From a virus, in IMG/VR virus record IMGVR_UViG_3300027659_000011, positions 62,001 to 126,000 of that record: 64,000 bases of DNA. One strand, 5' to 3'. The notes under the pieces were generated by a model. The model was not told where the DNA came from. It was given only the letters and a program-made list of their open reading frames with translations, and made no database searches. Position 1 is the first letter of the stretch, and every line of letters starts with the position of its first letter. A program made the position numbers and the translations under genes. Positions 55,073 through 62,510 of this stretch are shown here, piece by piece.

Positions 55073-55492
55073 TTACTCTATTTCAATGATACGAGGTTTT
55101 TTAGATTCTGGCAATTTTCTTTCTAATACTACTGTAAGAATACCGTCTTCCATTGAAGCGGACTTTACAACCATATGCTCAGCAATAGTAAACTGATGAT
55201 TAAAACTTCTAGCACTTAATCCGTGATGTAAGTACTGTTGCTTTTGTTCATCTTTTTGTTTTATACCTTTTATCAGTAATTGTTCCTTATCTAACTGTAC
55301 TGTAATTTCTTTCTTCTTGAAGCCTGCTACCGCAACTTCAACAGTGTAATTATTCTCATCGGATTTAATTACATTATAAGGTGGATAATTTACTGAGTTT
55401 CGATACTCTAAAGTGTCAAAAACCTGATCAAATCCAATTAACGTACGATTAAATGGTCCAAAATTAATGGTACCAACTCTAAGTTCTGTCAT
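55073..55492 (-). CDS. Small heat-shock protein (Hsp20/IbpA-like)
   Basis: 139 residues. Alpha-crystallin domain: PPYNVIKSDENNYTVEVAVAGFKKKEITVQLDKEQLLIKG, then FNHQFTIAEHMVVKSASMEDGILTVVLERKLPE. ATP-independent chaperone; phage copies are thought to protect virion protein folding. A good AAGGAG ribosome-binding site precedes the ATG; terminator follows. Confidence 0.9.
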   Translation of the reverse strand: MTELRVGTINFGPFNRTLIGFDQVFDTLEYRNSVNYPPYNVIKSDENNYTVEVAVAGFKKKEITVQLDKEQLLIKGIKQKDEQKQQYLHHGLSARSFNHQFTIAEHMVVKSASMEDGILTVVLERKLPESKKPRIIEIE

Positions 55493-57439: not shown

Positions 57440-57510
57440 TGGTTGCGGCGGAAGGACTCGAACCTTCTAGGCGGAGCTTATGAGACTTGCCTTTACCCTG
57501 ACTCACCGCG
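57440..57510 (-). tRNA. Initiator-like tRNA-fMet (CAT), degenerate
   Basis: Starts CGCGGTG and ends CGCCGCA-A-CCA, giving the C1-A72 mismatch that marks bacterial initiator tRNAs; T-arm GAAGG-TTCGAGT-CCTTC is clear. Anticodon loop CTCATAA is present, but its stem pairs poorly and the gene is only 71 bases, so function is uncertain. Confidence 0.6.
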
Positions 57511-57514
57511 ATAT

Positions 57515-57863
57515 TTGGTGCCAGTATTCTGTTACGAGGAACTGGCGGAACCCTAAGCAGAGTTTAGGCTGCTAATGCGAACTGTGAGTCGTTTGCGTTT
57601 ACTTTTGTTTAGTGTTAACGACAACTCTGTCGGACCGTCCATCTTTGTACTTATTGCCCTGTCGATTCTAAAACAGGCCCACCATAATACGTCTAGCATG
57701 TCTTCTGGAATAATTGTTAATACAAATGTAGTTGACACAATCTACATTAACAAACTTCCAAAGTGAATATGTTTCATCCATGTTAAATCCTATTATGGTG
57801 GACCTGGGGGGATTCGCACCCCCGTCCAGAACTACTTTCGATTAACTTCATACGATCATACTT
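57515..57863 (-). ncRNA. ssrA: Circularly permuted tmRNA (two-piece)
   Basis: Transcribed on the minus strand. The acceptor piece (about 57796-57863) comes first: T-arm ACGGGGGTGCGAATCCCCC, acceptor strand CAGGTCC, then A-CCA (CCA at 57796-57798). An intervening segment of about 115 bases follows. The coding piece begins GGGCCTG at 57680, which pairs with CAGGTCC including a G3-U70 wobble, the alanine identity element. The tag frame (57596 down to 57564) reads ANDSQFALAA and a TAA stop, after CGCAAACGAC identical to E. coli. The outer boundaries (57515, 57863) are approximate. Confidence 0.9.
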
Positions 57864-57938
57864 TGGCACACCCCCAGGGATTTGAACCCTGACTAACGGT
57901 TTTGGAGACCGACGTGCTGCCAATTACACTAGAGGCAT
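57864..57938 (-). tRNA. tRNA-Trp (CCA)
   Basis: Anticodon stem CGGT/ACCG around CTCCAAA (CCA anticodon), T-arm CAGGG-TTCAAAT-CCCTG, discriminator G, encoded CCA. The acceptor ATGCCTC/GGGGTGT uses three G-T pairs. Confidence 0.88.
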
Positions 57939-60502: not shown

Positions 60503-60576
60503 TGGTGGAGATAGCGAGAATCAGACTCGCGTTTTTAGAATCGGAATCTAGTGTTCTATCATTGAACTATATCCCC
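60503..60576 (-). tRNA. tRNA-Arg (CCG)
   Basis: Acceptor GGGGATA/TATCTCC, anticodon loop TTCCGAT (CCG), T-arm GCGAG-TCTGATT-CTCGC, encoded CCA. Anticodon stem has one mismatch. Confidence 0.85.
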
Positions 60577-61378: not shown

Positions 61379-61506
61379 TATTTCTGGGTTTTAGTATCTA
61401 TGTACCATTTAACGTCTTCTTTATATATTTGCCATACAGAAATACTTATTACTAATAATATTTCAAGTATAAAGATAATAGTTATTATTGAGCCTAATAT
61501 TGTCAT
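61369..61506 (-). CDS. 45-residue membrane protein overlapping tRNA-Arg
   Basis: MTILGSIITIIFILEILLVI then SISVWQIYKEDVKWYIDTKTQKYW; one membrane helix and a charged tail. ATG overlaps the UvdE-like stop (ATGA). The stop codon falls in the first bases of the tRNA-Arg gene, a compact arrangement. Confidence 0.6.
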   Translation of the reverse strand: MTILGSIITIIFILEILLVISISVWQIYKEDVKWYIDTKTQKYWR

Positions 61507-62510
61507 ACATGACCTATTTCTTCTGCAAACTGTCTACTGGCTGTATTCTTTTGTTTAGACTCACACATAATGTCTGCTGACTCTAAGAAAGTTCCAGCCC
61601 ACTGATTAACTTCTTTGTTCCAGTAAAATTCTGAATGTGCACGAAGTTTAGCTGAGGTAAAACCCTGTGATTTGAGTTCACGAAAGTCTGGGCGAGTTTG
61701 TCCACAATGATCAATGAGTATGTCTTCTCTGCTAATAGAGTAGTGAATAACTGGTCTGACACCACGCCATGAATCTTGAATTCGCTTAACCTTAGGGTCA
61801 TTTGGCTGAATATACTCACCACTAGCAATCCAGTGATGATGAATGTCAAGAACTAAGGCACAGTGGTCTACTAATTCTAGTGAGGCATCAATACCCCATG
61901 AGAACTCTGCGTTCTCGATGGTAAGTGTATTACGTGCTTCGGGTGTTAGTCGCTTTAGAGCTGAGATAATCCCTTTGGGACCTTGTTTGCCACCTACGTG
62001 TACATTGCATTTAAAGTCTTGAAACTTACGACCGTAACCCATGTAACGAATAATATCTGCATGATACTCAAACTCAGTAATTGACTTTTCAACTGTGCCT
62101 TCATTATCTGAGGCAAGCACACAAAACTGACCTGGATGAAAGCTAACGCGTACATCTGCTGCACGGAACTTATCACCGATACGGGAAAGATTCTTTTCTA
62201 GAAAGTCTACTACATCTGCTTGGAAGTAGAACCACATCCAGTCATCGTGTGAATATCCAGTAAGTAGATCACTACTTAATCTAAACATACGTAGACCTGC
62301 GGGTTGTTGTGCCATCCAGTCAGCTTGATTTTCAAGAGCTTGAATATTAGTACGCATCAAAGCCCATAGTCTTTCAGCAGCTATGTCTTTAGATTGCTTA
62401 TTAAGCCATGTGATGGTAGTGCCTTTAGTTTGGCAATTCACTACATCTGTAGATTCTGAACTTTGAATTTTACACGCAAAGCCAACGCGTTTTTGATTTT
62501 GATTAAACAT
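61503..62510 (-). CDS. uvsE: UV damage endonuclease, UvdE/UvsE-like
   Basis: 335 residues. RVSFHPGQFCVLAS, TLTIENAEFSWG, LVLDIHHHW and RPVIHYSIS are the metal-binding and barrel motifs of UvdE, a TIM-barrel nuclease that cuts 5' to UV photoproducts. Length matches the family core. It has its own strong promoter. Sensible for a phage in sunlit water. Confidence 0.9.
   Translation of the reverse strand: MFNQNQKRVGFACKIQSSESTDVVNCQTKGTTITWLNKQSKDIAAERLWALMRTNIQALENQADWMAQQPAGLRMFRLSSDLLTGYSHDDWMWFYFQADVVDFLEKNLSRIGDKFRAADVRVSFHPGQFCVLASDNEGTVEKSITEFEYHADIIRYMGYGRKFQDFKCNVHVGGKQGPKGIISALKRLTPEARNTLTIENAEFSWGIDASLELVDHCALVLDIHHHWIASGEYIQPNDPKVKRIQDSWRGVRPVIHYSISREDILIDHCGQTRPDFRELKSQGFTSAKLRAHSEFYWNKEVNQWAGTFLESADIMCESKQKNTASRQFAEEIGHV

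Follow-up and report, generated by a model that had tools for sequence, protein, structure and literature searches.

A phage permuted tmRNA gene whose intervening sequence probably doubles as a small protein gene

The permuted tmRNA gene described here raises two questions: (i) whether a two-piece tmRNA encoded by a phage is likely to function, and (ii) whether the intervening sequence (ITS) between its pieces has a role of its own. The gene lies in a window of 64,000 nucleotides, the whole stretch of DNA that we analysed, which corresponds to positions 62001-126000 of the 128,412-base IMG/VR virus record IMGVR_UViG_3300027659_000011. The source is a freshwater virus of bacteria, a T5-like phage of ~128 kb. 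Its DNA polymerase has 48.7% identity to those of T5-like Vibrio phages, e.g. pVp-1, and it also encodes ribonucleotide reductase, flap exonuclease and SbcCD-like genes. An HSP20 chaperone (55073-55492, minus strand) and a UvdE-type UV endonuclease (61503-62510, minus strand) are further products of the window phage. On the evidence below, we consider it likely that this phage locus yields a functional two-piece tmRNA and that its ITS doubles as a small protein gene.

A complete two-piece tmRNA gene in a tRNA array

A preliminary description of this DNA had proposed a phage-encoded, circularly permuted tmRNA with the tag ANDSQFALAA, and a covariance-model search as a check. The proposal was borne out. 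Both permuted-type models scored above their cut-offs: Rfam RF04321 (tmRNA_permuted) at 57857-57564 on the minus strand, with 112.5 bits (cut-off 47, E 3.8e-21), and RF01850 (beta_tmRNA), with 107.8 bits (cut-off 84). ARAGORN independently called a permuted tmRNA with the same tag. The gene is complete and permuted, runs from 57857 to 57520 on the minus strand and encodes its CCA; the coordinates first proposed (57515-57863) were right within a few bases, with the strand left unstated. Read 5' to 3' on the minus strand, the acceptor piece is followed by the ITS and then by the coding piece (Table 1).

Table 1. Features of the tmRNA locus, in window coordinates
Feature	Position	Strand	Basis or remark
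tRNA-Trp, CCA encoded	57864-57938	minus	ARAGORN; ends few bases before tmRNA acceptor piece
tmRNA acceptor piece	57857-57796	minus	RF04321 and RF01850 alignments, parsed pairs
P2 5' strand	57857-57852	minus	In acceptor piece
T-arm, loop UGCGAAU	57823-57807	minus	In acceptor piece
Acceptor 3' strand CAGGUCC	57806-57800	minus	Then discriminator A
CCA end	57798-57796	minus	Encoded, closes acceptor piece
Intervening sequence, 115 nt	57795-57681	minus	Parse, helix, fold; not in mature two-piece tmRNA
Shine-Dalgarno-like AGGA, 6 nt before nested ATG	57791-57788	minus	Sequence
Predicted nested gene for a small protein: MDETYSLWKFVNVDCVNYICINNYSRRHARRIMVGLF (37 codons), stop TAG	57781-57668	minus	Homologues, pN/pS, shuffles
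tmRNA coding piece	57680-about 57520	minus	ARAGORN, Rfam, covariation in relatives
Acceptor 5' strand GGGCCUG	57680-57674	minus	Start of coding piece
P2 3' strand	57638-57633	minus	In coding piece
PK1 hairpin	57632-57619	minus	In coding piece
Tag ORF GCA AAC GAC TCA CAG TTC GCA TTA GCA GCC TAA = ANDSQFALAA, then stop	57596-57564	minus	ARAGORN
3' hairpin GCCAGU/ACUGGC, conserved loop UCCUCGUAACAGAAU	57548-57520	minus	Covariation; beta_tmRNA partial match

The acceptor stem (CAGGUCC/GGGCCUG) forms 7/7 pairs, with the G-U at position 3-70 confirming the alanine-identity wobble that had been noticed earlier, and the T-stem forms 5/5. The P2 helix (GAUCGU/ACGGUC) joins both pieces, the tag has a hydrophobic, protease-type end (ALAA), and the fold z-score is -3.8. 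In the precursor, pairing between the spacer ends lengthens the acceptor helix, which then has 16 pairs in a row and takes in the CCA; full pairing of the CCA end might slow processing of the window precursor. A single fold with a pseudoknot before the tag had also been expected. The acceptor strands do join. Of the two PK1 helices, the first (CGACA/UGUCG) shows covariation among relatives; the second (AGU/ACU) has 3 bp and alone is not significant in the window (p 0.17). Support for the pseudoknot is confined to the first helix.

We judged covariation among phage permuted tmRNAs against partner-shuffled controls. The 3' hairpin was paired in 99% (60% shuffled, 16 distinct helices in relatives), P2 in 98% (86% shuffled, 10 distinct helices in relatives) and the PK1 stem in 77% (63% shuffled, 11 distinct helices), while the helix closing the ITS measured 10.1 bp versus 5.9 bp with partners swapped. 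G3-U70 was present in 118/118 phage permuted tmRNAs, parsed with a requirement of only at least 6 of 7 acceptor pairs. The T-loop UGCGAAU has a G at position 55, which we counted against a functional tmRNA, yet this loop is common to 30/118 phage tmRNAs, including that of the window; it occurred in 0/38 bacterial permuted tmRNAs, a sample in which T-loops were mostly GGCGGUA or GGCAGUA. Because relatives show strong covariation, we consider the phage two-piece tmRNA very probably functional in partnership with host SmpB. No SmpB was found when the whole virus record was searched, which means that the host would have to provide it for any tmRNA made here; the earlier suggestion that the phage supplies its own ribosome rescue holds for the RNA but not for SmpB.

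Within a tRNA array, the gene follows tRNA-Trp immediately, and the two probably share a transcript, with the tRNA upstream. The tmRNA is itself followed at once by a tRNA-like stretch (57441-57511, minus strand). This has a T-arm (GAAGG/CCUUC), the sequences CUCAUAA and ACCA, and an acceptor CGCGGUG/CGCCGCA whose C1-A72 mismatch resembles that of initiator tRNA. It was called neither by ARAGORN nor by Rfam at E<=1; a clearer version occurs at the same place in the relatives L208 and L211, and it is possibly a degenerate initiator tRNA. A further tRNA (60506-60576, minus strand) was found by Rfam with 60.8 bits and is absent from the ARAGORN calls.

Such a gene is not as rare as might be supposed. 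Permuted phage tmRNAs are already published (PMC9004378, PMC11915505), and they are abundant in IMG/VR. There were 53 two-piece tmRNA candidates, mostly aquatic, among 18,146 phage genomes (PMC9004378), and the tmRNA database behind RF04321 holds 79 phage tmRNAs (PMC11915505). In our searches, RF04321 scored above cut-off in 17/50 records with a related DNA polymerase, and a degenerate tag pattern matched at least 120 viral stretches.

The tmRNA had also been taken to point to the host, and a comparison of its tag with candidate host tmRNAs had been suggested. The covariance score does lean to the betaproteobacterial form of permuted tmRNA, but a pattern for ANDSQFALAA (TCN serine codon, AAAYGC upstream) had 0 matches among 84,980 genomes of bacteria and archaea, and the inferred host stays weak because the tag matches no sampled host. 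A looser ANDxQF pattern had 7 genome matches, of which 5 were non-permuted tmRNAs and 2 were MAG contigs with phage-like permuted genes; neither pattern settled the host. ANDSQFALAA was the commonest tag in our first phage sample (22/120 among the matches listed), yet it matched none of the genomes, and phage tmRNA tags may follow an evolutionary path of their own. The lineage of a phage tmRNA need not track the host, as is described for Melnitz (PMC9004378).

An SD-led reading frame in the spacer under purifying selection

The intervening loop noted in the preliminary description is indeed present between the two pieces, but the probable protein gene in it was missed. The nested 37-codon ORF includes the peptides MDETYSLWK and DCVNYICINNYS. 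The ORF extends 13 nt into the tmRNA coding piece and ends there with its TAG, which starts 10 nt in. Taken alone, the window ORF has a p of 0.018 in dinucleotide shuffles; it was spotted first, and the Shine-Dalgarno (SD)/ORF rule used below was drawn up afterwards. The 37-aa product had no Pfam match. Its predicted structure was of low confidence (pLDDT 61), with no confident fold.

L479 and L483 were found by a pattern for part of the nested ORF, and their ITS is 95-97% identical to that of the window. The only divergent homologue, L484, was found by a looser protein pattern; it is a T4-like phage contig, encodes MDESYSLWKFINIDCINYICINNYSKAHARSIM, and has GGAG at the site aligned to the SD. 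The contig also carries a PhoH gene and one of the ferredoxin oxidoreductase family; at 4835-6032 of L484 lie a possible heme oxygenase and a ferredoxin oxidoreductase family protein (phrog_7278).

Between the window and L484, changes affect 13 of 17.5 synonymous sites and 9 of 81.5 nonsynonymous sites (pN/pS 0.15, Fisher 4e-7). Because L484 came from a protein pattern, we redid the test on the 18 codons left free by the search pattern, where the ratio was 0.22 (Fisher 0.002, random-placement P 0.0002). The nested frame has 7 changes, as compared with 15-16 in the other two forward and two reverse frames and 9 in the remaining reverse frame, and stops occur in every alternative frame. These comparisons show purifying selection on the predicted nested ORF with its SD. 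Protein genes nested in a tmRNA spacer appear to be new; our search of the literature (open-licence papers only) found no earlier report of them.

Spacer genes and their exchange among phages

We scored the spacers of phage and bacterial permuted tmRNA genes by one rule: an SD and start in the first 32 nt, and a frame that covers 60% or more of the spacer. Among the phages, 14 of the 17 spacers longer than 130 nt passed (0.1 expected), as did 16/73 of those of 80-130 nt (3.0 expected) and 1 of those below 80 nt (3.5 expected), counts that are not independent because some sequences are related. By the same rule, an SD-led ORF was found in 0/38 bacterial permuted tmRNA genes, a sample from Pseudomonadota in which 37 spacers measured 4-57 nt and one 115 nt. 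In phage nested genes the SD start usually lies a few bases from the CCA, and the TGA of a leader TGAT, directly before the coding piece, often serves as the stop. Across the 31 rule-passing phage cases, which come from the two samples not chosen for an ORF, the stop lies in the coding piece in 9 and in the spacer in 22, which places the window in the minority class.

Nested products include a thioredoxin (4e-21), DUF2061 (3.5e-20), an Oxidored-like protein (2.4e-10) and a CxxCxxCC protein (1e-5). Most nested-gene pairs have a pN/pS of 0.08-0.38, with higher values in three, and several pairs not chosen by protein have 0.08-0.31; the pair L328/L351, at 1.39 on 7 changes, counts against the coding reading. 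When nested proteins were compared with isolated phages, no isolate matched except one DUF2061 relative. A composite phage tmRNA query recovered two kinds of isolates with a permuted tmRNA, none with a nested gene, and the window tmRNA as query matched tRNA-Trp only.

The Oxidored-like spacer frames of L107, L058 and L030 are without a clear start of their own. The L107 frame extends back to the ATG of a conserved UGUAUGAAG in the acceptor piece, and its Oxidored-like protein might begin inside the tmRNA. The tmRNA of L416, with a nested thioredoxin, apparently has an unusually long tag of about 31 codons ending ESRFALAA; ARAGORN made no call there.

The window and L483 are 100% identical in the T-arm and acceptor, 97% in the spacer and 58% in the coding piece. 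The window and L030, whose spacer cargo is an Oxidored-like protein (Pfam assignment via its relative L107), are 88% identical in the coding piece, 100% in the 5' part of the acceptor piece and 42% in the spacer. From this pattern we infer that the stretch from the T-arm to the acceptor 5' strand is transferred as one block; recombination within conserved parts of the tmRNA is the presumed mechanism. These alignments show the spacer slot to be exchangeable among phages. The predicted nested gene has passed between T5-like and T4-like phages, whatever the tmRNA around it.

Processing, translation and alternative explanations

RNase P and tRNA 3' processing release the ends of known two-piece tmRNAs. 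As the gene is arranged, one minus-strand tRNA-array transcript would carry tRNA-Trp, the acceptor piece, the ITS and the coding piece, and host RNase P at GGGCCUG together with 3' processing at the CCA would excise the ITS, as in those known tmRNAs. The acceptor stem and P2 would then hold the two pieces together, alanine would be loaded, and the tmRNA with host SmpB would rescue ribosomes and add ANDSQFALAA to proteins. The nested ORF would probably be translated from the unprocessed transcript or from the excised spacer. Since its stop lies in the mature coding piece, RNase P maturation would strip the ORF of its stop. Translation that reaches this stop would have to precede or replace the RNase P cut; otherwise the nested message would be nonstop, itself a tmRNA substrate. 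The position of the stop thus suggests that one transcript could give an intact protein or a mature tmRNA, never both. In E. coli, the mRNA of ArfA is made nonstop by RNase cleavage and is hence tmRNA-dependent; the likeness is one of analogy, confined to the position of the window's stop codon, as enzyme, locus and protein differ. A broader proposal is that the spacer is a general exchangeable small-protein slot and that, with its stop in the mature RNA, the tmRNA tags its own nonstop nested message, a switch between rescue RNA and protein. We regard this as rather doubtful; if true, the nested protein would build up only under limiting processing or rescue.

The locus could instead be an ordinary phage permuted tmRNA whose spacer frame arose by chance in an AT-rich stretch of 115 nt. 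Most phage spacers <80 nt are without an ORF beyond expectation, the spacer ends are conserved as RNA, and the p of 0.018 is all that the window ORF alone provides, each of which fits chance. However, the L484 substitutions are mostly synonymous in the nested frame, also without the search-fixed codons, and long spacers encode recognisable protein families; we therefore hold a chance frame to be unlikely. The RNA itself might also act not in rescue but as a decoy or modifier in competition with host tmRNA, for example to spare phage proteins. The tag-less tmRNA-like RNA of mycobacteriophage DS6A is reported to inhibit host tmRNA (PMC11915505), and the tag and T-loop of the window are unlike those of sampled bacteria. 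Against such a role, which strikes us as improbable, the tag is intact and ends in ALAA, and neither the acceptor identity nor the resume region has been lost.

A decaying host ssrA fragment, acquired by imprecise prophage excision and functionless in the phage, is an explanation we find very hard to credit and consider largely refuted. It is true that tmRNA genes are common integration sites and that prophages carry pieces of them (discussed in PMC9004378). The present gene, however, is complete at both ends, covaries within the phage family and is located in a tRNA array; its tag is in none of the sampled genomes, the record had no tyrosine integrase family match, and a tmRNA scored above cut-off in the same 17/50 DNA-polymerase relatives.

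The reading that we favour, a functional two-piece tmRNA with a protein gene in its spacer, can be set beside known systems. The window gene shares with RF04321/RF01850 genes the order of acceptor piece, ITS and coding piece, G3-U70, P2 and a tag of the form ANDxxFALAA, whereas the bacterial genes have short spacers (37/38 at 4-57 nt) with no SD-led ORF, and that of the window, at 115 nt, is apparently protein-coding. The OM43 phage Melnitz is likewise an aquatic lytic phage with a complete two-piece tmRNA and host partners, but differs as a T4-like myophage with an alpha-type tmRNA and a glutamine riboswitch (PMC9004378); a spacer gene goes unmentioned in the part of that paper drawn on here. 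A second gene inside a tmRNA gene has precedent in group I introns with homing endonuclease genes in the T-loop, and in one permuted gene with tRNA-Ala in the ITS (PMC11915505). In contrast to these inserts, the phage nested genes would encode small non-endonuclease proteins in a processed spacer, with the SD, and often the stop, at a fixed distance from the tmRNA ends.

The spacer of permuted tmRNA has so far been treated as waste; here it appears to hold a conserved protein gene, and in many other phages the slot is occupied by genes for thioredoxin, DUF2061, zinc-ribbon-like and membrane peptides. Such nested genes have been overlooked by annotation pipelines because they lie inside an RNA gene. 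They would help to explain why phages might retain the permuted gene order and would offer small genes a way to ride on tRNA-type operons, and they suggest that, during infection, RNA processing is tied to nonstop messages and to ribosome rescue.
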